A DNA stretch of 64,000 bases from Methanolobus profundi (lineage in GTDB: Archaea; Halobacteriota; Methanosarcinia; Methanosarcinales; Methanosarcinaceae). The notes under the pieces were generated by a model. That model was given only the letters and a program-made list of their open reading frames with translations, had not been told where the DNA came from and did no database searches. The stretch is from NCBI RefSeq assembly GCF_900114835.1, contig NZ_FOUJ01000001.1, positions 124,001 to 188,000 of the forward strand. Reading direction: 5' to 3'. The translations under genes and the position numbers were made by a program. Below, piece after piece: positions 15,992 to 28,622 of this stretch. Each line of letters opens with the position of its first letter. Positions within the stretch are counted from its first letter, which is position 1.

Positions 15992-17203
15992 TCACCATAC
16001 CATCAGTACAATATCAGCACCAGCAGGATTTGCTGTTCTGTATATCGCATCTAACTGGGTACTGGCAAGTTCATATCTGCTGCTGTTGTCCGTGGCGTTG
16101 CACATGAGTGCGATCGCCATGTCAATATCATCTGCATGCTGACAATTCATATGTTCAGAGATGAGCCTTTTATTCTCATCCATTATTAGAGTGTTGACAG
16201 TATTCACAATGTCCAGTTCGATACTTTGCTCTTCTTGGTCGATCGTTACTGTGAGGCCGTACAGGTCATTAACAGTATAGTTCATACATCCAAGGACACT
16301 CTGTATGACAGGACTGCTGTAATTCTGTGTATCAGGTCCGGTAAGACATGCCAGTTGTTCACTGTCAACCGAAATTTCAGTACCGTTGAGCGAGGACAGA
16401 TATTCGTAAGGAAATACGATCTCTGTGATCATCTCAGCACATCCTGTTGATGCGATCAGGATACTGTCATTGAACATTTTATGAAGTTCATCATCAGGGT
16501 CAGGGGAATTCATGGCAGCATAGATCGTGCTGTCATTGAAAGGTCTGTATATATCGTCCTTTGTAACGGAAAAGGTCACAGGCAGGGATATTCTTGCTTT
16601 CTGTTTAGCAGCGTTCACGGGTGCTTCCTCTCCTACTACGATCTCACTCTGCACCTTGTAGCCTGTAACAGGCTGCCAGTGAGCTTCGAACCTGTAATCA
16701 TACCTTTGTCCTATGGTCCTTTCAAGATGTGCTTCTATCTGCTTTTCGGTCTCTACACTTTGCATCTTCGTCATAGGATTGAGAACTTTTGTTGTACTGT
16801 TATCTTTCTGATACAGGCTGAGGACCAATCCTTCTGCTACAAGGTCTGAGAATGTACGATGTCTTTGTTCTTTTGAGAATATTGTCTTCTCGGCATCCTC
16901 AAGCAATGAATCCTCTGAAATATTGACATTGATGCCTGCCAGTTCGGCAGGTTTGAGCGTATATTCAAAATCATCTACTGTGCTGCTCATAATGGTGTTC
17001 AGGAGGTATGTGTCCATATCCTGTGCAGATGTGTGGGAAGCAGAATGATATTGTCCATTCGCTGCGATCGATGGCATAAGAATGACCGCAGAAACAGATA
17101 CAAGTATAAGGAACAGGATCGCATCGATACTGGTTGAGAATGCTGCCTCGTCCTTTATTATTCCTGACCTGTCTGCTTTATGATAATTTTCGGATATTGG
17201 CAT
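15992..17203 (-). CDS. Membrane-anchored extracellular protein of pilin-like cluster (403 aa)
   Basis: No specific function is recognised. A charged N-terminus (DRSGIIKDEAAFSTSID) precedes one hydrophobic helix (about residues 24-46), the arrangement of archaeal pilin-like and Tad-associated proteins; the remainder is an extracellular domain with N-x-S/T sequons and several cysteines. The ATG at 17203 has GGAG 6 bases upstream; an ATG at 17215 is the alternative. It is the last of four tightly packed minus-strand genes after hisS. It resembles the haloarchaeal DUF728x group of co-located proteins, but this is a recollection of family style, not a search result. Confidence 0.7.
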   Translation of the reverse strand: MPISENYHKADRSGIIKDEAAFSTSIDAILFLILVSVSAVILMPSIAANGQYHSASHTSAQDMDTYLLNTIMSSTVDDFEYTLKPAELAGINVNISEDSLLEDAEKTIFSKEQRHRTFSDLVAEGLVLSLYQKDNSTTKVLNPMTKMQSVETEKQIEAHLERTIGQRYDYRFEAHWQPVTGYKVQSEIVVGEEAPVNAAKQKARISLPVTFSVTKDDIYRPFNDSTIYAAMNSPDPDDELHKMFNDSILIASTGCAEMITEIVFPYEYLSSLNGTEISVDSEQLACLTGPDTQNYSSPVIQSVLGCMNYTVNDLYGLTVTIDQEEQSIELDIVNTVNTLIMDENKRLISEHMNCQHADDIDMAIALMCNATDNSSRYELASTQLDAIYRTANPAGADIVLMVW

Positions 17204-17232
17204 AGTGTTCTCCATTGTTTGTCAGATAGTTC

Positions 17233-17736
17233 TCAATTCCACAGGTTTTGGGTGATCTTCACGGTGATCGTCCCTGGTACACATCTCACATTGCTTCCAA
17301 GTTCAATGACCACAGGTACTGATGCCGCAATGATGTCCCTGCCATTCTGAGAGCCTGTTCCATCATCGATCGTCCAATGATACCTATTATCGTCGGTAGA
17401 TACCTCTACAAAAAGGTCGATATTTTCCGAGAATCGCTGGAAGAACATGTATCTCTCCTCCTTTGCTGAAGGAGATGCTATTATGTCAAGTGCTTCAGCT
17501 GATATCAGCTCAGGCCGGCTTCCCTGAAGAGGTGGATAGGCTGCGATGTCCTTTGCTATCATGGCAGCCTGTTCGTAACTCTCAAGTGCATTTGAATTGT
17601 CATCAAAAGCTATGAAGGTCTTTGACAGGATCGCTGCAAATACCATAAAACCGATAACCACAATAGCAATGGATATTATGTCGTTGTTGGGCTCAAGAAA
17701 AGCTCTCTCATCACTGGTGAACGAGGATATACTCAA
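17233..17736 (-). CDS. Pilin-like membrane-anchored protein (167 aa)
   Basis: The N-terminus SFTSDERAFLEPNNDIIS is followed by one hydrophobic helix (about residues 19-43) and an extracellular domain of about 120 residues. A short charged leader, one N-terminal helix and a small beta-rich domain recall pseudopilins. The start is TTG with GAGGTGA 6 bases upstream, inside the end of the previous gene (26-bp overlap). The RAFLEP segment resembles the haloarchaeal minor pilin-like DUF families. Its role is unknown. Confidence 0.7.
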   Translation of the reverse strand: MSISSFTSDERAFLEPNNDIISIAIVVIGFMVFAAILSKTFIAFDDNSNALESYEQAAMIAKDIAAYPPLQGSRPELISAEALDIIASPSAKEERYMFFQRFSENIDLFVEVSTDDNRYHWTIDDGTGSQNGRDIIAASVPVVIELGSNVRCVPGTITVKITQNLWN

Positions 17737-18385
17737 GTTCTCTCACCTCGCTTCCATCTGTTACGAAGACTGATGCCTGCTCAATTATGACATCTCTGCT
17801 TGTGTTCAAGTATAGTTCTTCTGCTGCTGTACTTGAGAGCAGGTCTGTTACATCTGTATATGGGAAGGGTGAATTTATCGGCTGGTCCCTGGTCCCGTCA
17901 GCAGCAAATTTACCTGTCAGTACCGATCTGAGGTTTTCGGGACTGAACGGTACTGTCCTGTAACTGAGAGCTCGGGCAGCACAGATGGTATTTCCATCAT
18001 CCTCAAAGCTACTGGTCACATATTCTCCAGTAACAGAGATATTCAGTCTTTCGTGAGAAATGAGCTGTCCTGCGTATGTGTCGAATACGTAAGTGACAGT
18101 AAGGTTCTCTGTTCCCGGATGAATGCTACCTGCAGAATCAATATGTGATGCAAGGTCAACTGTGATAAGTTCCAGTTCGTTCTTTTCGATAACATCTGAT
18201 GAACTGGCAGCCAGTGCATACACTGCAGTAAGAATGACCACACTTGCAAGGATGAGTGCCGTTTTTGAAAGTATGAGGTCTGCCCATGCTCTGTCATTAT
18301 CGATTAACTGGCATATCATGTCAGTTGCCGGGTCTGGAAGGTTATGGCAGACCACATTAACTTCTTTTCGTTTTTTCATCTTCAT
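17711..18385 (-). CDS. Pilin-like membrane-anchored protein (224 aa)
   Basis: A cytoplasmic N-terminus of about 40 residues (with NDRAWADLILSKTALIL) leads into one membrane helix (about 40-60), then an extracellular domain rich in Thr/Ser and N-x-T/S sequons. It overlaps the upstream gene by 4 bases (ATGA), a sign of translational coupling. The end, EYILVHQ, runs into the next start. It is probably a structural or assembly component of the same surface structure as its neighbours. No known domain is recognised with confidence. Confidence 0.7.
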   Translation of the reverse strand: MKMKKRKEVNVVCHNLPDPATDMICQLIDNDRAWADLILSKTALILASVVILTAVYALAASSSDVIEKNELELITVDLASHIDSAGSIHPGTENLTVTYVFDTYAGQLISHERLNISVTGEYVTSSFEDDGNTICAARALSYRTVPFSPENLRSVLTGKFAADGTRDQPINSPFPYTDVTDLLSSTAAEELYLNTSRDVIIEQASVFVTDGSEVRELEYILVHQ

Positions 18386-18873
18386 TGCGACTTATCACAA
18401 AGTGCAATAAAAATTTTTCCATTTTGATCTCGAACACTTTCCATAGTTATCGTGTGTGGTCCGGGGCTGAGGATGAAACAGCCGTCAAGTGTGGCATTAG
18501 AATAGTATGCAGCAGATTCGCCATTTATCTGCTTATCTTTTATCTTAATATAGTAGTTACGAGCATCAGTGGGCCAGCTAGCTTCCTCGTTGGGAATTGC
18601 TCCCATGGCAAGTTCTGTATTGGGAGGAACATCTATGTCAAGTGTGATATTGCTGCCAGCCCCTTTTGAGGACATTTGTTCAGCATGTGCCTCTATCTCA
18701 GAAATGATGGTCTGAGCAACGTATACCTCTTCCTTTTCAAGAAGGGAATTGACACCGGTGGTAAGCAGGAACAGCAATGCCCCTATTGCAATGACCGCTA
18801 CTACCATCCTCATAGGGAGGGCATCAGCTGCCCTCTCATTGTTCAGTATCTTTCGAAATGGGTCACTGCTCAT
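18382..18873 (-). CDS. Pilin-like membrane-anchored protein (163 aa)
   Basis: The N-terminus [18 protein letters not shown] precedes one hydrophobic helix (about residues 22-41) and a small extracellular domain of about 120 residues. Its ATG overlaps the hisS stop codon by 4 bases, so it is translated from the hisS message. The motif [10 protein letters not shown] before the helix parallels NDRAWADLI and DERAFLEP in the next two genes, suggesting a shared processing or membrane-insertion signal. Confidence 0.7.
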
Positions 18874-20424: not shown

Positions 20425-23400
20425 ATGAGATCAGATGCTTCAGGTAAAAAACGTAGTTTCTTCCAGGATACACAGGCTTATATTCCGTTTGCTGTGATCG
20501 GTACTTTCGTTCTTCTCTTTGCTGTGATCTCATCGGTATATATAGCAAAGACGGATTATGAACTTGCAGAAGTGATCTACACCACGGATACAACGGATAT
20601 GAAAATGGAAGAGAATGCTATTGATTTTGCTTCTGCTGACCTTGCACGGTGTCTTAATTATGCAGGGATGAAGGCTCTGGCCTGGCAGGGTGAGCATCCT
20701 GTGATAAAACCTGAGGATCTCACATATGAACAAATGGATTTAGATGGTTTCTACGTTGCTGCTGCGAGCAGGGAAGCTGAACCCGGAGATACGATAAAGG
20801 TATCTGTCACTCTTCCATCGGATGTATTCCAGGCGATATCATGTCTCTTTTCAGAAAAGACCAGAACACTTGTCCTTAAGAGCGATTCCGGTACGGTCTA
20901 TCAGACCATAGATTACAATGAGACGCATTCATTCTGGACAAGTTCTGAATTTGAAGAGGAACTGTTGATCCCTGAGAATGCAGAATATGGGTATGCTTAT
21001 CTTTTCCTTGAATATGATGGTGAAACAAAGGCTTTGAACTGGTTACATGTGGGCAGCAGTCCTTTGAAAGATATCACAGTCGATCACTTCAATGAGTATC
21101 TCCAGACATCCTATCAGGAGAACCAGCACACTTTCAATAATTATGCTATCAACATAGAACCGAATGTAGACCCTTTACAGATACGAATAGACCAGATCAA
21201 TGGCACACTGAAAAGGGAGATCAGCAGATCAGGTGCTGATAATCCTGTTTATCCTTTATATTATACTATGACCGTGGAAGATCTGAACTATACTCTTGTG
21301 GACCTTAGTGCCAATACTTCTGTGAACGGTTCAATGAATGTGACCGCTCTGATCACTTCAAGGGAGCCTCTTCTGGAGCAGCTTGTTAATGAATATCAGG
21401 ATGAACTGGATGGTGGTGTGGCTTCGGATATAGTTCTTGGTGCCACCAATGTCCGAACTTTTATCTATGGCCCGTGGCAGCATTATATGAATGGTCCTCT
21501 GAACATCGTAACAGGTCCGTCATTGTCTGCTTCTGTGAATGCCGGAACGTTGTACACTCAGAAGAGGATATTCGATTCTGTGGACCCCTGGGCCCTTACA
21601 TATACTACATATTACAACGGCAAGGTTCTCTATGATGATGTAAAACACGATACAAGTGAGTACGAAGATGATAAGAAAAAGAATCTGAGCACAACATATG
21701 ATGGTCTGTCTGAAAAGGGAACTTTCAACATAAGTATTGCTCAGGGCATCAATGAGTCCATGAAGGATGCCAATGTAAGCATGGAGGACGTCTCTAATAA
21801 TTCAAAGATAGTGGTATCAGTTTCTAATTTCACAAATGAAGTTTACAGCAACTGGGTCTACAATGATGTCGATGAATGGAGCAATGACGATCCTGACCTG
21901 TTGCATGATGTAACACATGATGTGTATAGTGGTACGATACAGGGTCAGGTCTTCAGGGATGGGTTCAACAGTGCTGTTCCTTATGGTCTGTGGGTGGGCT
22001 CTACGACCTATGATTCGGTGTCATATCAGGGAGGTGAGTCAAAGGCTGATAAATACATCACATGGACCAGCCATCATCCGGTCTCGATATCGCATACATG
22101 TGCTATATCTCCTGACTATATTTTTAGTGATGTTCTCGACCTGGACCACAAAGTAAGTGTAGATGCTTCCTCTCATGAGTGGTATTTTAAGAGTGTAAAT
22201 GTGGAACATGTATCCACAAATCTCGTTTGTGAAGGTGTGGATGTGACCTACGATTACATAGGCAATGATAATGTGGTTGATCTTGAAAGGACAGATGGTT
22301 ACCTGTCCCGCGAAAACCATACTTTTGACTGGAAGGTCACGTACAATGTTAATTTCAAGGCTAGCACACGCTGGAATATCTATTATACATATCACTGGTC
22401 GTATATGACATATAACTCAGCTACAGGAAGCCGTAATTATTTTAATGGGGATTCTTCCGGTTCACTGACCAACTATCAAATTACTGATGTGGTCACTATT
22501 CCTCATACTGAAACAGAGACCGAATACATAAGCATCGTTTATCATCAATATCTTCCATCCGGTGGATACTCTGGCATAGATTCGGTCTACGATCCGGGTA
22601 CTTCCAATGATTACAGGAACACAACGGTGATCATCAATGGTGTCCAGCAGAATGATCCCGGATGCAGTGATGCGGCCGATAAGTATCGTGATCAGTATGT
22701 TGACCTGTACGAGATAGAAAAGGGCTATTCCACTTACACGGATGGTACATCTCTTCCTGATGAGAAGGTCTACTGTGATATTCCTTCATGGCTTCACAAG
22801 AACATGAGCCAGGAAATGGAGAGCATGTTCGATGCTATCAATGAAGATGACCCCACACGTGAAGTTTTTCTGTTGGGTGAGAACCTTGGGAAGAACCCCA
22901 CAACATTGATCCAGGAAGCTTCGCTGGAACTTGCCGATGAGATGTCCGATCCTGCAAAGCGTGAATCCTTCATTGAACAATATCAGTACATGAACATGAG
23001 CCAGTTCAACACAAGCAGTGATGCCAGTCGTGCCATTGCGAAGAATGAGGCATATGACCGCCTGATCCATGAACTGCGGGAGCGTAACAAGGGCGTAGAG
23101 GATACTTTTGAGGACTACATCGAGACATCGTTCGAAGAAGAGCAGGGTCATTCCCTTCTCGACCTTGTCAAAAACAAGGTTTCCACCGATGTGATATTCA
23201 ATAATCCTGCAATGGATATGGCCTCCACGGCACTGGCATCGGAAATGGGTATCATTGAAACTATAGAGGTTGTGGGGATGCCTGACAGTAAGTACAACTG
23301 GACCGAGAATATGACCCTTGTTGTGGACCAGTATCCTGATTATCTCTACCATGACCCTGAGTTCGATCTGCAAAGCCAGTATAACTGGACAGATTCGTCA

Positions 23401-24489
23401 GGCAGGAGGGTGTATCCTTTGGCTGTTCGCAATATCTGTATCTTTTCTACAGGTATCGGTGATGATATTGCAGAAATATTGCAGTCTGCTACAGAACCAC
23501 TGAAAGATGCAGTGTCACAGTCCATGAGCCAGAGCATTGCTGATGCGAACTCCGAGGTGAATTCCCTGCTTGATGATATCGCGGAAGATAGTGTGGATCT
23601 GACCATGAATGGCATGTCAACAGATATGACTCTTATCGAGGAGAACCGAACCAGAATGATGACGGCATACAGCAGCAGTATCAGGGAACAGATTCCGGCA
23701 ACAATTGCTGATGAGATTGCAAACGACCCTGTTCTCAGCACGTGGATAAGCCACTCTGATACCGTCCTGATCTCTGAGTCGTATCTTGATTCCCTCTCCG
23801 ACGAGGAGATTGTAAGTATGGCCGCTGACAACACCTTACAGAATGAAATTCTTATCATGCTCAGTCAAAAGATCATGGATGACAACCCGACGTTAGCCTC
23901 TGATGAAATGGAAGCAGTGCTATACCGTCTCGAAGCTGATCTCCGTATCGGTGTTGCAGATGGTGTGTGTAAAGGCATAGAACTCTGTCAGGAGACCATC
24001 GATGAGTGCTTCGCCAACATCAACAGTGAACTGCAAGCCAAACTGGATGAATCAAGTGAGAAACTCACAGGCAAACTCGCAGATAAGATTGACCAGAGGT
24101 TGCAGAGGTCGATGAAGATGGTTCCGTGTGGTCTGCCGGTGATTCCTCCGCATTGGGTGTGTACTGTGAATGTGTGGGAGTATGAAGTTATAGGGAAGTA
24201 CAAGGAATTTGAGATTATTGATAATGATAATGAATGCATGTTCAATCCTTATTTCGGGCACGATGCGCAGGTGTATGTGAGGAAAGAAGAACGTATTCCT
24301 CATCCGTTCAAAAGAAACAACAATAATGGGTTTTTATGGATTGGTTACAATGCACCAATAGAGTTTAGATTTGCTGGCTATGCTGCTACAATAGTAGGTC
24401 CTGGTCCAAAAGGCGTTGGCGATAAAACAGGTAAGAGGGATGAAAAATCAGAAGCTTTTGATCAATTAGTATCTGAATGGGAGAATTGA
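20425..24489 (+). CDS. Giant membrane-anchored extracellular protein (1354 aa)
   Basis: A basic N-terminus (SGKKRSFFQDTQAYIPF) is followed by one membrane helix (about residues 20-41) and about 1300 extracellular residues. These are rich in Asp, Tyr, Ser and N-x-T/S sequons, with aromatic beta-strand stretches around 500-720 and a helical, Glu/Ser-rich part around 790-1230. A Cys/Pro segment (VPCGLPVIPPHWVCTVNVW) lies near residue 1232. The N-terminal layout resembles haloarchaeal DUF7286-type proteins, which accompany pilin-like small proteins, as here. No enzyme motif is seen. The next gene starts one base after its stop, so it heads an operon with the sarcinarray genes. Confidence 0.75.
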   Translation: MRSDASGKKRSFFQDTQAYIPFAVIGTFVLLFAVISSVYIAKTDYELAEVIYTTDTTDMKMEENAIDFASADLARCLNYAGMKALAWQGEHPVIKPEDLTYEQMDLDGFYVAAASREAEPGDTIKVSVTLPSDVFQAISCLFSEKTRTLVLKSDSGTVYQTIDYNETHSFWTSSEFEEELLIPENAEYGYAYLFLEYDGETKALNWLHVGSSPLKDITVDHFNEYLQTSYQENQHTFNNYAINIEPNVDPLQIRIDQINGTLKREISRSGADNPVYPLYYTMTVEDLNYTLVDLSANTSVNGSMNVTALITSREPLLEQLVNEYQDELDGGVASDIVLGATNVRTFIYGPWQHYMNGPLNIVTGPSLSASVNAGTLYTQKRIFDSVDPWALTYTTYYNGKVLYDDVKHDTSEYEDDKKKNLSTTYDGLSEKGTFNISIAQGINESMKDANVSMEDVSNNSKIVVSVSNFTNEVYSNWVYNDVDEWSNDDPDLLHDVTHDVYSGTIQGQVFRDGFNSAVPYGLWVGSTTYDSVSYQGGESKADKYITWTSHHPVSISHTCAISPDYIFSDVLDLDHKVSVDASSHEWYFKSVNVEHVSTNLVCEGVDVTYDYIGNDNVVDLERTDGYLSRENHTFDWKVTYNVNFKASTRWNIYYTYHWSYMTYNSATGSRNYFNGDSSGSLTNYQITDVVTIPHTETETEYISIVYHQYLPSGGYSGIDSVYDPGTSNDYRNTTVIINGVQQNDPGCSDAADKYRDQYVDLYEIEKGYSTYTDGTSLPDEKVYCDIPSWLHKNMSQEMESMFDAINEDDPTREVFLLGENLGKNPTTLIQEASLELADEMSDPAKRESFIEQYQYMNMSQFNTSSDASRAIAKNEAYDRLIHELRERNKGVEDTFEDYIETSFEEEQGHSLLDLVKNKVSTDVIFNNPAMDMASTALASEMGIIETIEVVGMPDSKYNWTENMTLVVDQYPDYLYHDPEFDLQSQYNWTDSSGRRVYPLAVRNICIFSTGIGDDIAEILQSATEPLKDAVSQSMSQSIADANSEVNSLLDDIAEDSVDLTMNGMSTDMTLIEENRTRMMTAYSSSIREQIPATIADEIANDPVLSTWISHSDTVLISESYLDSLSDEEIVSMAADNTLQNEILIMLSQKIMDDNPTLASDEMEAVLYRLEADLRIGVADGVCKGIELCQETIDECFANINSELQAKLDESSEKLTGKLADKIDQRLQRSMKMVPCGLPVIPPHWVCTVNVWEYEVIGKYKEFEIIDNDNECMFNPYFGHDAQVYVRKEERIPHPFKRNNNNGFLWIGYNAPIEFRFAGYAATIVGPGPKGVGDKTGKRDEKSEAFDQLVSEWEN

Positions 24490-24490
24490 T

Positions 24491-25096
24491 ATGAACATAA
24501 AAATGTTGATAGTTGTTTTTTTGGTTAGTTTTATGGTAATGCCTTCAACAACTTTGGCCGAAAGCCCACATATTTCTATTGATGTGTATTATAACGATAA
24601 ATTCATTCCTATAACAGAAACTCCAAAGCCATTATTAAAAATTGGTGAGCCTTTCACTCTAAGGTTTGATGTAACGTGTTTAAGTCCCGGAGTTTTATCA
24701 GTGAAGTTAACGGAACTGGCAGATGGTAGTTTTGAGGTAGTTGAGGGCCCAACTTCAAAAATTGATAAATATACTGATAATAAACTCGAGAAGAACGAAA
24801 CTATTTCTTATGAGTGGACACTAAAACCAACAGATGTATGGGCTGGAGGGAATATGCCTCTTGATTTTGTTTACCAGCTAAATGATTTTGATACTATGAA
24901 AGTTCTAGTTCAAGGTGAATTCACCGCCGCCTACGTCACTATCTCCGAAGAGTACTACGATGGTCCTGCAATTCCAGAAGAATCTATAGATGGATTCTCT
25001 GGTGATAGTAGTTCACCTACAACACCTGCTTTTACAGTGCTGTGTGCTTTTTTTGCGCTGGTTGTTGTCAGTGTTTATAGAAGGAAACAGAGGTAG
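24491..25096 (+). CDS. Sarcinarray/MAST-type surface protein, copy 1
   Basis: This 201-residue protein has a signal peptide (MNIKMLIVVFLVSFMVMPSTTLAES), then a beta-rich domain with VYYNDKFIPIT and PKPLLKIGEPFTLRFDVT, and a C-terminal tail SPTTPAFTVLCAFFALVVVS ending YRRKQR, a PGF-CTERM-like sorting signal. The tandem arrangement and these motifs fit the methanosarcinal sarcinarray family (MAST domain). The family's molecular function is unknown. The start is one base after the stop of the giant exoprotein gene. Confidence 0.8.
   Translation: MNIKMLIVVFLVSFMVMPSTTLAESPHISIDVYYNDKFIPITETPKPLLKIGEPFTLRFDVTCLSPGVLSVKLTELADGSFEVVEGPTSKIDKYTDNKLEKNETISYEWTLKPTDVWAGGNMPLDFVYQLNDFDTMKVLVQGEFTAAYVTISEEYYDGPAIPEESIDGFSGDSSSPTTPAFTVLCAFFALVVVSVYRRKQR
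24920..24968 (+). repeat. 49-bp near-identical block in sarcinarray genes, copy A
   Basis: The block starts TTCACCGCCGCCTACGTCAC and encodes FTAAYVTISEEYYDGP. It recurs at 26154-26202 (identical) and 26805-26853 (one difference). It is GC-rich compared with the AT-rich surrounding coding sequence. Confidence 0.85.
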
Positions 25097-25105
25097 GTGA
25101 GAAAG

Positions 25106-25699
25106 ATGAGGTGGATGCTGGATATCATGTGCATAGTTGCTCTAATACTGTTGTTTTCATCACCAGTATCATCGGAAAGTTCCATTCTCAAAGTTGATTA
25201 CTATTATAATGATCAGTTCATTCCCGTAACAACAACTCCAGAACCATATTTGAAAATTGGAGAACCACTAACATTGGCCTTTAATGTAACATGCTATAAA
25301 GAATGCAATCTATCTGTTGCATTGTTGTCATCGTCATATGATATAATCGAAGGTCCAACTTCTAATTTTGGTGATCGCGTATGTCAGGTAATGAGTGAAA
25401 ATGAAACTAAATTCTTTGAATGGATAGTAGCTGCTAATGATAACAGTTCAGGAAGTACAGGGTCCATTAGTTTTCGTTATGATATGACTGATTTGAATCG
25501 TGGATACAAAATTACAGGTGGTGGTCCTGTCATACTTTACGCCAAGATTTCACATTTACACTACGACGGTCCCAAAATCGAAAAAGTCTCTTCTGAAGCC
25601 TCATCATCCAATGAGGGCAGATCACCTACTACACCTGCGTTCACTGCTCTTTGCGCTGTGTTCGCACTGGTTGTGATGAGCTTGTATAGAAGGATGTAG
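25106..25699 (+). CDS. Sarcinarray/MAST-type surface protein, copy 2
   Basis: This 197-residue paralog has the same order: signal peptide, YYYNDQFIPVT, EPYLKIGEPLTLAFNVT, EGPTSNFGD, and tail SPTTPAFTALCAVFALVVMS. It is the most diverged copy; the YVTISEEYYDGP block shared by the others reads YAKISHLHYDGP here. The ATG at 25106 follows AGGTGA; a GTG at 25097 is in frame. It has five cysteines in the mature part or tail, more than copy 1. Confidence 0.8.
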   Translation: MRWMLDIMCIVALILLFSSPVSSESSILKVDYYYNDQFIPVTTTPEPYLKIGEPLTLAFNVTCYKECNLSVALLSSSYDIIEGPTSNFGDRVCQVMSENETKFFEWIVAANDNSSGSTGSISFRYDMTDLNRGYKITGGGPVILYAKISHLHYDGPKIEKVSSEASSSNEGRSPTTPAFTALCAVFALVVMSLYRRM

Positions 25700-25715
25700 G
25701 GTATAGGTGAGAGAA

Positions 25716-26330
25716 ATGAGAGGGTCACAGTGTTTTATGTTCGTTATTTGTCTTATCTTTCTGTTTTCATCACCAGTAGCAGCAGAAAGCCAGTATGGTA
25801 ATATCGAATATTATTACAATGGTCATCTGATTACTGCTTCTGATTCTCCTGAAACGCCAAAGCCACTATTAAAGATAGGAGAACCATTCAAACTGAGATT
25901 TGAAATTACATGCTATAAAAGAAACTTTCTGTCAGTTAAGCTAACGTCAATTGGTGATACTGATTTTGATATTATTGAAGGTCCAACATCCGATTTAGGT
26001 GACTATATAGATGAAACAGTAGAAGCAAATGAAACAAGGATCTTTGAATGGACCGTTGCTCCAAATGAAGAATGGGCTGGTGGCAGTGCTCCTATCAATT
26101 TTTACTATCAAATGACTGATTTGGATACCGCAAAGACCATCACAAATGGTAAGTTCACCGCCGCCTACGTCACTATCTCCGAAGAGTACTACGATGGTCC
26201 TGTAACTCCGGATGAATCCATAGAAGAACCATCTGACGATGGCAGTTCTCCCACTACTCCTGCGTTCACTGCTCTTTGCGCTGTGTTTGCGTTGGTTGTT
26301 GCTACTGTGTATCGGAGAACGCAGAATTAG
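25716..26330 (+). CDS. Sarcinarray/MAST-type surface protein, copy 3
   Basis: This 204-residue paralog has signal peptide, YYYNGHLIT, PKPLLKIGEPFKLRFEIT, WTVAPNEEWAGGSAPINFYY and tail SPTTPAFTALCAVFALVVAT with YRRTQN. It is nearly identical to copy 4 from WTVAPNEE to the end, while the N-terminal halves differ. The ATG at 25716 follows AGGTGA; the GTG at 25707 is in frame. Confidence 0.82.
   Translation: MRGSQCFMFVICLIFLFSSPVAAESQYGNIEYYYNGHLITASDSPETPKPLLKIGEPFKLRFEITCYKRNFLSVKLTSIGDTDFDIIEGPTSDLGDYIDETVEANETRIFEWTVAPNEEWAGGSAPINFYYQMTDLDTAKTITNGKFTAAYVTISEEYYDGPVTPDESIEEPSDDGSSPTTPAFTALCAVFALVVATVYRRTQN
26154..26202 (+). repeat. 49-bp near-identical block in sarcinarray genes, copy B
   Basis: Identical to the block at 24920-24968. 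Downstream identity with copy C continues through the C-terminal coding region. Confidence 0.85.
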
Positions 26331-26372
26331 GATTGAAATACGGTAAGTTATGGATAAAGCTGGGTGGTAAAA

Positions 26373-26975
26373 ATGAAATTAAAACTGGTTTGTATATGCA
26401 TTATATTGTGTTTGCTGCTTCTTTTTTGTCCTCCTGCATCTTCAGAGAGTTCCAATCTTAAGATCGATGTTTATTACAATGATCAATTGTATCCGGGAGC
26501 TTCAACTCCAAAACCATTGCTAAAAATCGGTGAACCATTCACTCTTCGATTTGAAGTAACTTGTTATAAAAGGAACTTTTTGTCAGCCCAATTGTTGTCT
26601 ATTGGAAATAATGATTTTGATATAATTGAGGGACCCACATCAAAATTGGGAACCGGTACTCGAGGAATCATAGAAGCAAATGAAACGAGGATTTTTGAAT
26701 GGACAGTGGCACCTAATGAGGAGTGGGCTGGAGGTAGTGCACCAATTGATTTTTACTACCAAATGACAGATTTGGATTCAGCAAAAACAATTACCAGTGG
26801 CGAATTCACCGCCGCCTACGTCACCATCTCCGAAGAGTACTACGATGGTCCTGTAACTCCGGATGGATCTATAGAAGAACCATCTGATGATGGCAATTCT
26901 CCCACCACGCCTGCGTTCACTGCTCTTTGCGCTGTGTTTGTGTTGGTTGTTGCTACTGTGTATCGGAGAAGATGA
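26373..26975 (+). CDS. Sarcinarray/MAST-type surface protein, copy 4
   Basis: This 200-residue paralog has signal peptide, VYYNDQLYPGAST, PKPLLKIGEPFTLRFEVT, and the same WTVAPNEEWAGGSAPI and SPTTPAFTALCAVF blocks as copy 3. It ends VYRRR. The ATG at 26373 follows GGTGG. It is the last copy of the array; the 327-bp stretch beyond has no recognised gene. Confidence 0.82.
   Translation: MKLKLVCICIILCLLLLFCPPASSESSNLKIDVYYNDQLYPGASTPKPLLKIGEPFTLRFEVTCYKRNFLSAQLLSIGNNDFDIIEGPTSKLGTGTRGIIEANETRIFEWTVAPNEEWAGGSAPIDFYYQMTDLDSAKTITSGEFTAAYVTISEEYYDGPVTPDGSIEEPSDDGNSPTTPAFTALCAVFVLVVATVYRRR
26805..26853 (+). repeat. 49-bp near-identical block in sarcinarray genes, copy C
   Basis: Differs from copies A and B by one base (CACC for CACT in the Thr codon). 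Confidence 0.85.
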
Positions 26976-27302
26976 TTTGCAGAGCAAACTGAATGGCTAA
27001 TCAAGCTTCCAAGAAAAACAATAAATTGCTTGTTCGATTGAAAAGCAAAATTCAGATGAGCCTAGGCAAAAGATAATCAGTACATCCTATTCAGACTGAA
27101 AGAAAATGTATTCTCTAAATGTGTGCTTCAACGCATTAAAAAGAATGCTGAATATGAAAGCTGTTTTTTTAATGTCCCTGAAAGGTAGAGACTTGATATG
27201 TGAAGTAAAGTTTGATGAAACTAAAAGAATAAATTTTAAAGAAATATGAATATATTATGCACTTAGTTTTTGTGTTATGTTTTGTATTTAGAGGTGGTTA
27301 TT
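26976..27302. other. AT-rich intergenic region, no recognised gene
   Basis: The 327 bp between the sarcinarray array and the LVIVD gene contain only short frames, such as a 34-codon one at 27149-27253 with no recognisable similarity or ribosome binding site. TATA-like sequences at 27228-27240 (ATAAATTTTAAAG) and 27248-27257 (GAATATATTA) may drive the next gene. Confidence 0.5.
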
Positions 27303-28622
27303 TTGAATCGTAAAATGTTTTTGTTATTTTGTCTCAGTGTTACTTTATTAGTAAGTATAACTGGTGCAACAACTAATGAAATGAACGTTGAAATTAAAAC
27401 ACATTTAAATTATTCAATAGATGTATTTGCTTATTCAGAGGACTATGTGTATGCAGGTCATGACAGAACATTATCAATAATCAATATAAGTGACCCTATA
27501 AATCCAATATTAGAAGGAAAGTACGAAGCAAATGACTTTATTCGCAAAATAGAAGTTGAAAAAAATATTGCATACATAGTTGATGGAGACAAACAATTTA
27601 GCATCATCAACGTAAGCAACCCAAAAAATCCTTTTGTTGAAGGAAAATATACTTCGTCTGAGTACATATCTACATTTGCTATCAATGAAAACTTTGTATA
27701 TACTGCTGAGGGAAGATATCTTAGAATAGTTAATGTAACTAGCAATAAACATCCAACTTTGAGAGGACAATACAAAGTAGTGTACAAAATAGTGCGTGGA
27801 AATAGAACTCAAGAAATTATAGATGAGATTTCACATATTGAGCTAGAGAATGACTTAGCTTATGCTTCGATTCAAAATTGTATGTTTATAATTAATGTGA
27901 ATGATCCTGACAACATTTTTCTTGAAGGAAAATATTTAACATCGAGCCACATAAAAAATATTGATGTAACCGAAACCATTGGATATTTAAGTTGCTGGAT
28001 GGATGGTTTTTTAGTAGTAAATTTAAATAACCCCAAAAAAATCTCTCTAATCAATAACCATTATATTCCTAAATCAAAGAATAGTGGAACTATATCTACG
28101 AGAAACAAAGATTTTATGGCAATAAAGCAGGTTGTTACGGAAGGGAATTTTACATATGTAATTGGAGATGAAAATCAATTTGTTATTTTAAATAGTAGCA
28201 ATCCTAAAAACATATCAACTGAAGCATGTTTTAGTATCATTGAAAGAAATGACTTTGGAAAAGCAACTCCTGCTTTCGAAGGATACAGTGATAGGACAAA
28301 ACTACTTGATTTTGAAGTTGAAGATAATCTAGTATATTTGGTTGATCGATATAATGGACTTACTATATTGTCTTTTAACGACAATTTAAATGGTGCCAAT
28401 GAACTCGAAATTGTAAGTGAAAATGATACTAGATTATTGAATAATACTGAGCAAGTAGAACAAAATAGCATTAATAAAACTAAAATTGATGATAAATTGC
28501 ATGATAAAAAATTTGAAGAACTACCTTTAGAATCTAATAATAGCTCCAAGATTCCAGGGTTTGAAATTACATATTCTTGTATAGTAATTATTATTTTGTA
28601 TTGTGTGAGGCGTTTGTTTTGA
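27303..28622 (+). CDS. LVIVD-repeat surface protein with PGF-CTERM-like tail
   Basis: This 439-residue secreted protein has a signal peptide (NRKMFLLFCLSVTLLVSITGA), then at least five repeats of about 40-50 residues with the pattern YVxxxxxxLxIINxSNPxNPxxEGKY, typical of LVIVD beta-propeller proteins on archaeal surfaces. The tail PGFEITYSCIVIIILYCVRRLF is a degenerate PGF-CTERM signal. The TTG at 27303 follows GAGGTGG; an ATG at 27315 is too far from that site. Codon use is strongly AT-rich compared with the rest of the window, which suggests recent acquisition or relaxed selection. Confidence 0.8.
   Translation: MNRKMFLLFCLSVTLLVSITGATTNEMNVEIKTHLNYSIDVFAYSEDYVYAGHDRTLSIINISDPINPILEGKYEANDFIRKIEVEKNIAYIVDGDKQFSIINVSNPKNPFVEGKYTSSEYISTFAINENFVYTAEGRYLRIVNVTSNKHPTLRGQYKVVYKIVRGNRTQEIIDEISHIELENDLAYASIQNCMFIINVNDPDNIFLEGKYLTSSHIKNIDVTETIGYLSCWMDGFLVVNLNNPKKISLINNHYIPKSKNSGTISTRNKDFMAIKQVVTEGNFTYVIGDENQFVILNSSNPKNISTEACFSIIERNDFGKATPAFEGYSDRTKLLDFEVEDNLVYLVDRYNGLTILSFNDNLNGANELEIVSENDTRLLNNTEQVEQNSINKTKIDDKLHDKKFEELPLESNNSSKIPGFEITYSCIVIIILYCVRRLF

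Follow-up and report, generated by a model that had tools for sequence, protein, structure and literature searches.

In the available passages of a study of type VI secretion system (T6SS) clusters of Vibrio cholerae, arrays of immunity genes are attributed to effectors having been displaced one after another while the immunity genes stayed (PMC5361080). Polymorphic toxins are described in the accessible part of a second study as exchanging a 3' cassette together with the immunity gene, and such systems are given there as rare in archaea, the RHS proteins of Methanosarcina acetivorans being named (PMC3482391). The locus reported here lies on the + strand of a 64,000-nucleotide stretch of the Methanolobus profundi genome (GCF_900114835.1, contig NZ_FOUJ01000001.1, positions 124,001 to 188,000; this whole stretch is called the window), where the gene for a giant surface protein of family DUF7286 (PF23957) is directly followed by a tandem array of four sarcinarray genes. 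Analysis of this locus and its relatives suggests that archaea have a system of self/non-self recognition that has not been described before.

Sarcinarray proteins have been named before, without partner or function in the searchable literature. In a search made mostly without subscription papers, the name was found only in a domain-count table in the accessible text of PMC5244752; the terms TIGR04209, IPR026476, 'MAST domain-containing', DUF7284, DUF7285 and PF23957 were likewise found only in that text, and DUF7286 was found in no paper. The giant-sarcinarray pair was not found in the titles and abstract beginnings of the papers listed on archaeal polymorphic toxins and kin discrimination. 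Methanogens live in dense mixed communities. If the proposal below is true, they and their relatives would have a self/non-self system made of parts unrelated to contact-dependent inhibition (CDI), Rhs or T6SS, and machinery for kin recognition or antagonism would be widespread in archaea, from Methanosarcinales to Thermoplasmata-type genomes. Both families were found in M. acetivorans (as search controls); this species is genetically tractable, so the system is directly testable.

Results

Giant and partner in the window

The giant gene (20425-24489, +) was recognized from its open reading frame (ORF), its profile match and relatives in the fetched loci, and encodes 1354 amino acids (aa) with one N-terminal transmembrane helix. 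The match to PF23957 scored 117.1 bits against a gathering cut-off of 27, its best stretch being at the C-terminus (residues 957-1344). The hydrophobic helix, read from the sequence, is encoded at 20479-20550 (+), with QDTQAYIP before it. The C-terminal tip domain (residues 1233-1354; 24121-24486, +), which in other genomes is found again in the truncated cassettes that lie downstream, contains a variable loop (residues 1290-1310; 24292-24354, +). Sarcinarray copy 1 (24491-25096, +), the partner of the giant's own tip, consists of a signal peptide, an immunoglobulin (Ig)-like domain, a linker and a C-terminal sorting helix. All coordinates of the giant and the four sarcinarray ORFs in the preliminary description agreed with the ORF map.

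Linkage across genomes

Among 149 genomes of the order, sarcinarray was found in 78 and DUF7286 in 76, both in 72 and neither in 67 (Fisher p = 6e-30, a statistic that ignores phylogeny). All matches in the four genomes with DUF7286 only were weak or partial. The six with sarcinarray only comprised five of one genus, two of which were inspected and carry a single divergent copy, and one genome that is 57% complete; arrays consistently lacking the giant were looked for and are not the rule. At loci L082 and L083 (genus g3; L and G numbers are labels of loci and genomes, and f1, f2, f5 and f14 of families), a single divergent sarcinarray, with an ectodomain identity of about 0.3 to others, lies in a genome without a DUF7286 match; the two loci share a gene setting, and in L082 the gene is flanked by an AdoMet synthetase gene on one side and redox genes on the other.

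Gene order was counted in 60 chosen loci plus the window (set A), whose ORFs were mapped. These had 84 complete tips, and the 83 with 300 bp or more of downstream sequence were counted; 81 of them were directly followed by a sarcinarray gene (43/44 for full-length giants), in most cases with a spacing from a 4-bp overlap to a 9-bp gap, and the misses were a 74-aa fragment in L065 and the L093 giant. A scan of named genomes with the giant's C-terminus as query (set B, 54 loci, genomes overlapping set A) gave a sarcinarray behind 53 of 55 tips, the misses being L132, which comes from the L093 genome, and L150, an ANME-3 locus. With the two overlapping sets taken together, the partner was present behind 134 of 138 complete tips. 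The giants of L093/L132 (genome G119) and L150 are full length and have no sarcinarray behind them; that of L093 is followed instead by genes for a cupin and an OEP-domain protein, and another G119 contig (L094) has a tip fragment with a sarcinarray. These exceptions possibly reflect rearrangement or an assembly break.

Outside the order, a sarcinarray homologue (E 1e-24 to 7e-38) stood behind the giant in all ten Thermoplasmata-type loci whose 3' end is on the contig, eight of them with Thermoplasmata or Thermoplasmatota in the title and two with 'Euryarchaeota archaeon'. Eight of these giants have 878-985 aa and those of L172 and L176 are cut by the contig end; in a further locus, L168, the giant runs off the contig.

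Covariation of tip and partner

Within one family (56 pairs, 1501 between-genome comparisons), the distance between tip loops predicted the distance between sarcinarray ectodomains with r 0.587. When partners were shuffled within genomes (eight genomes with more than one pair), r averaged 0.237 with a maximum of 0.540, and none of 5000 shuffles reached the observed value; a control with the conserved residues that immediately precede the loop gave a corresponding count of 1796 of 5000, that is, no signal. All 26 comparisons with a tip-loop distance of at most 0.25 had an ectodomain distance of at most 0.29, and above a tip distance of 0.5 the mean ectodomain distance was 0.58 (878 comparisons). 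The result was replicated in family f2 (17 pairs), with r 0.80 for loop plus tail and 0.86 for the tip domain (0/5000 permutations). Tip variability in 20-residue bins was ambiguous, and the pairwise comparison of tip and partner resolved it.

For full-length giants alone, the partner followed the tip in 13 Methanolobus loci (r 0.63) and in 15 Methanosarcina loci (r 0.76). None of the 100-residue segments of the giant body tracked the partner (r -0.20 to 0.37); body segments tracked the N-terminal part (r 0.48-0.96). A second hypervariable patch was seen in the body at residues 600-700 (22222-22524), overlapping predicted very long beta strands; residues 601-700 were the most variable of the compared 100-residue segments in both Methanolobus and Methanosarcina, and the patch does not track the partner sarcinarray.

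Tip and partner fall within a span of about 500 bp, and the intervening signal peptide has a small signal of its own (r 0.155), as would suit two fast-evolving neighbouring surface genes that recombine together with no functional coupling. Since they are neighbours, part of the covariation is indeed co-transfer. Divided by sarcinarray stretch, however, r with the tip loop was 0.09 for residues 27-60, 0.65-0.66 for residues 61-140 (24671-24910, + in copy 1; 0.65 and 0.66), 0.11 for residues 141-160 and 0.07 for stalk plus anchor. That the coupling skips the nearer residues 27-60 and peaks at 61-140 favours a physical interface between tip and partner, although stretch 27-60 also varies less; this stretch appears to have been exchanged or homogenized while the loop and residues 61-140 stayed matched. 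The order of the pair is moreover kept from Methanosarcinales to Thermoplasmata-type genomes, and nearly all complete tips are partnered. An absence of coupling is hardly probable at all on these grounds, and tip and sarcinarray very probably form a cognate pair that is exchanged as a cassette.

The proposal in the preliminary description that sarcinarrays, then without a known partner, interact with the giant was thus borne out by the survey as regards the partner gene, the DUF7286 giant. Its suggestion that they decorate the giant was not, as sarcinarray type goes with the giant's tip type and the arrays of related genomes hold displaced tip/partner cassettes, which points to recognition or immunity instead of decoration.

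Tip cassettes and orphan sarcinarrays

In many Methanosarcina-type and f2 loci the giant and its sarcinarray are followed by a truncated giant C-terminus and a further sarcinarray, and so on in repetition. The truncated pieces begin near giant residue 1087, 1208 or 1236 or further upstream, and each has its own sarcinarray directly behind it. Closed pieces that were inspected start inside the giant and lack a membrane helix; pieces cut by a contig end are indistinguishable from full giants. Some truncated tips are broken (L067) or without the loop (L070), and the sarcinarray behind them is still full length. The array lies behind the full-length giant wherever one is in view, except in L110, where a second giant is preceded by two sarcinarrays and a contig-truncated piece.

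Array orphans of at least 180 aa in one family (19 orphans; 77 sarcinarrays compared) were matched to sarcinarrays of other genomes. For 13 of the 19, including copies 3 and 4 of the window, the best foreign match was a tip-paired sarcinarray with an ectodomain identity of 0.80-1.00, and the identity to the own giant's partner was 0.38-0.56. A reciprocal case was found in two Methanosarcina genomes, G102 and G073, whose giants are about 90% identical except at residues 601-700 (0.57) and the tip end (0.48): the orphan beside the G102 pair has an ectodomain identical to that of the active partner in G073, with the tail of the old tip kept in front, and the G073 orphan matches the active partner of G102 (ectodomain 0.93). 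Methanosarcina ectodomains are no more alike within a genome than between genomes (identity 0.51 in both), and C-terminal anchor regions are (0.65 within vs 0.50 between). The ratio of non-synonymous to synonymous divergence (dN/dS) was 0.06-0.36 for orphans (10 comparisons) and 0.08-0.56 for paired sarcinarrays (19); where testable, the orphans are under purifying selection.

The maintenance of orphans bears on the possibility that the pilus tip diversifies as a virus receptor, the sarcinarray being a co-assembled subunit that fits each tip. Such virus escape would accommodate a tip loop and partner that vary together while segments of the giant body track one another. Orphans without a tip would then be expected to serve no purpose, but most have their full length, purifying selection acts on those tested, and the sarcinarray has a membrane-sorting signal of its own; virus escape is improbable.

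The array in the window

The giant's stop ends at 24489 and the ATG of copy 1 lies at 24491, leaving a 1-bp gap, and the ORFs that follow are spaced by 0, 7 and 33 bp. The four copies, the only sarcinarray genes found in this genome, are members of TIGR04209 (163, 101, 153 and 157 bits for copies 1-4; curated cut-off 45). Against TIGR04204 (MAST_ArtA_sort, cut-off 150), copy 1 scored above the cut-off (154.5 bits) and copies 2-4 below it (75.5, 139.2 and 139.5). Copy 2 (25097-25699, +; likely start ATG 25106) is a divergent orphan whose best ectodomain identity to another genome is 0.51. Orphan copies 3 (25707-26330, +; likely start ATG 25716) and 4 (26364-26975, +; likely start ATG 26373) have ectodomain identities of 0.84 and 0.89 to the giants' partners in L095 and L092, respectively, both of the same genus, and of 0.50 and 0.52 to copy 1. 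With ectodomains nearer to active partners in other species, simple tandem duplication of copy 1 was ruled out for copies 3 and 4. A 49-bp tract just behind the variable ectodomain is identical in copies 1 (24920-24968, +) and 3 (26154-26202) and has one mismatch in copy 4 (26805-26853). Synonymous divergence between the copies sharing it is 0.95-1.66 over the whole gene, and the tract shows the footprint of gene conversion or recombination.

A GGTG-type Shine-Dalgarno motif precedes each likely ATG of copies 2-4, and GGAG precedes copy 1. A pattern scan listed no + strand terminator-like site between the giant and copy 1 and one such site inside copy 1 (24845-24861). Sigma-70-type promoters were found at chance level (35 vs 30.3 expected), with a bacterial consensus that is uninformative for an archaeon. 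The preliminary description had called giant and sarcinarrays one operon, and their layout agrees with a transcription-unit-like block.

The next gene 3' of the array (27270-28622, +) encodes a secreted protein of 450 aa with LVIVD repeats (PF08309), whose C-terminus has an IPGF stretch, a helix and a basic end and is perhaps another archaeosortase-type substrate. No relative of it was found among the clustered neighbours of the fetched loci.

Structure models and domain searches

The AlphaFold2 model of sarcinarray copy 1 (mean predicted local distance difference test (pLDDT) score 87.3) shows an Ig-like domain, where pLDDT is mostly 95-98, then a disordered stalk and finally a helix at the C-terminus, an architecture that would suit a protein standing on the membrane. 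The fold is an Ig-like sandwich with generic neighbours, among them complement MG domains, pilus backbones and RbmA, which are uninformative on function. This end state bears on the idea that the sarcinarray is a tip-specific chaperone for folding or export of the giant. The strict gene order and the frequent 4-bp overlaps, which suggest coupled translation, would suit it, and covariation of client and chaperone is plausible. The C-terminal sorting signal and the stalk nevertheless imply a surface location; orphan chaperones should decay, and haloarchaea-like giants manage without a sarcinarray, so that a chaperone role is very improbable.

In the model of the giant, residues 585-709 (22177-22551, +) form three predicted beta strands of about 40 residues each (local pLDDT about 86). 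The whole-model predicted template modelling score (pTM) is 0.42, and for this reason neither a tip fold nor a pore is claimed. Foldseek comparison of the whole giant with the PDB gave nothing under E 0.001, the best rows being the complement polyC9/membrane attack complex (MAC) at 2.3e-3 to 2e-2 with template modelling scores of 0.05-0.07; in this model the long beta-strand region (585-709) gives a hint of likeness to MAC/perforin. The top rows of VIA-align for the giant (Z at most 9.5) were mostly matches of helical stretches and were rejected, the MAC rows having Z 3.8-3.9 and a root-mean-square deviation of about 10. By sequence, no solved relative of tip or sarcinarray was found in the PDB; the tip had no match in a plasmid collection, and copy 1 none in a phage collection.

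Type IV pilus-like gene context

A pilin-like cluster in the window (15992-18873, -) lies beyond hisS and is divergent from the giant. It consists of a DUF7284 (PF23955) gene (15992-17215, -), whose relatives immediately precede the giant, within one operon, in L122, L213, L214, L215 and L216; a DUF7285-like pilin-like gene (17233-17736, -; a weak Pfam match of 14 bits, under the cut-off of 27); and two more pilin-like genes that are conserved in relatives, one at 17711-18385 (-), conserved beside its neighbours and with no Pfam match over the cut-off, and one at 18382-18873 (-), with no Pfam match. In three of the four loci of family f14 (L213, L214 and L216) small pilin-like genes, DUF7284, giant and sarcinarray form one operon, and L122 has the same order; at the remaining f14 locus, L215, no sarcinarray was found. 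Pilin-like genes thus share an operon with the giant in L122, L213, L214 and L216, as expected from the earlier assignment of the giant to a pilin-like system, and from this context its N-terminal helix is probably pilin-like.

Among the haloarchaea-like loci (L207-L212, L217, L218 and L220, so called from high-scoring DUF7286 matches and a Haloferax control), three taken together have giants near a T2SSE ATPase gene (L220, L211, L217), T2SSF (over the cut-off only in L211), DUF7283, DUF7285 (L220) and DUF7284 (L220, L217), a setting that would make the giant part of a type IV pilus-like system. Most of the giants listed from the haloarchaea-like loci (L207-L212, L217 and L220) retain a C-terminal GVGD..G...E.S-like motif. 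The T2SSE and T2SSF matches of the M. profundi genome lie outside the window; this would fit the statement, in the available text of a census of archaeal type IV pili, that ATPase and platform modules can use pilins encoded elsewhere (PMC4858521).

Discussion

The giant may be an archaeal type IV pilus-like component held in the membrane by its N-terminal helix, with the C-terminal domain as an exposed polymorphic contact tip. The sarcinarray would be the tip's cognate partner, binding it directly through an Ig-like domain that is carried on a short flexible stalk and anchored at the surface by an archaeosortase-type C-terminal signal. Tip loop and partner would pass between strains as one cassette; an incoming pair would be joined to the conserved body of the giant, and the previous tip would be truncated and moved downstream with its partner gene retained. 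The tip is proposed as the agent of antagonism or kin discrimination because the layout resembles that of Vibrio cholerae T6SS arrays and polymorphic-toxin cassettes. It would act on a neighbouring cell unless a matching sarcinarray is displayed there, and displaced sarcinarrays would be kept since they still protect against neighbours with the old tip. By this analogy, we give an even chance to contact-dependent antagonism or kin discrimination with the sarcinarray as an immunity-type partner. The more specific proposal that sarcinarrays are the immunity repertoire of a contact-dependent antagonism whose weapon is the pilus-linked giant, with its polymorphic tip and perhaps a membrane-inserting beta-hairpin region at residues 585-709, is put forward tentatively.

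A surface domain of Ig-like fold on a stalk, whose structural neighbours include RbmA, a biofilm protein, and pilus backbones (Z about 10, generic), the specificity of tip and partner, and the failure to find a toxin domain would also be compatible with adhesion or allorecognition. The tip would then be a ligand and the sarcinarray a surface receptor on sister cells, same-type sticking would produce packets or consortia, and orphans would widen the range of partners. Displaced partners that match foreign tips would, however, blur self-recognition, and the displacement layout is that published for immunity arrays; adhesion is rather unlikely.

Several observations, besides the proximity of tip and partner, weigh against an immunity-type cassette pairing. 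Tips are variants of a single homologous domain that differ in their loops, rather than different toxin domains swapped for one another, and no toxin domain was recognized in the tip, DUF7286 being the only match over the cut-off in Pfam and none being obtained in NCBIfam or PADLOC. The window's own orphans lack tip remnants. Two of the array orphans closely copy the partner of the giant in their own locus (L070:12116, 0.93; L067:5415, 0.99), and with 56 of the 77 sarcinarrays tip-paired, a paired best foreign match for 16 of 19 orphans is unremarkable by itself. Not every array gene is intact: four of the 107 sarcinarray ORFs in set A are broken (84-106 aa; two in L077, one each in L078 and L118), and L070:9709 is truncated. 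In family f5 covariation was not seen (eight pairs, one genome with more than one, uninformative). Finally, five genomes of one genus have a sarcinarray without a DUF7286 match, and haloarchaea-like genomes have the giant with a sarcinarray behind none of eight complete copies; one giant ORF is listed for each of these genomes from at most three scored candidates per genome, so that tip cassettes are possible there.

Comparison with known systems

The window copies are members of TIGR04209; the library entries of TIGR04209 and TIGR04204 give a name and state no partner, and here the sarcinarrays go with a DUF7286 tip. The DUF7283-7286 type IV pilus-like operon of haloarchaea-like genomes contains a homologous giant (PF23957) and differs in its lack of a following sarcinarray (0/8 giants).

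Unlike in polymorphic toxin, Rhs and CDI systems, no toxin module was recognized, and the giant-sarcinarray pair is absent from the available passages of PMC3482391. The tip is one domain family with variable loops from haloarchaea-like to Thermoplasmata-type genomes and is for that reason not filed as a polymorphic toxin. Shared with polymorphic toxin and immunity loci are a constant body with a variable C-terminus, a downstream partner that is specific by covariation and orphan cassettes in other loci; as in the systems described in the accessible part of PMC3482391, the C-terminus is polymorphic, and cassette and partner gene form a single exchange unit.

The locus is unlike Vibrio cholerae T6SS arrays in that it has no T6SS and no known effector domain, the variable loops lie within one conserved domain, the giant's partner has a surface-sorting signal and the context is that of archaeal type IV pili. 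It is like those arrays, as they appear in the available passages of PMC5361080, in its constant 5' body with an exchangeable 3' end and partner gene, in the retention of displaced partners downstream, some with truncated remnants, and in the resemblance of orphans to the partners of other strains.

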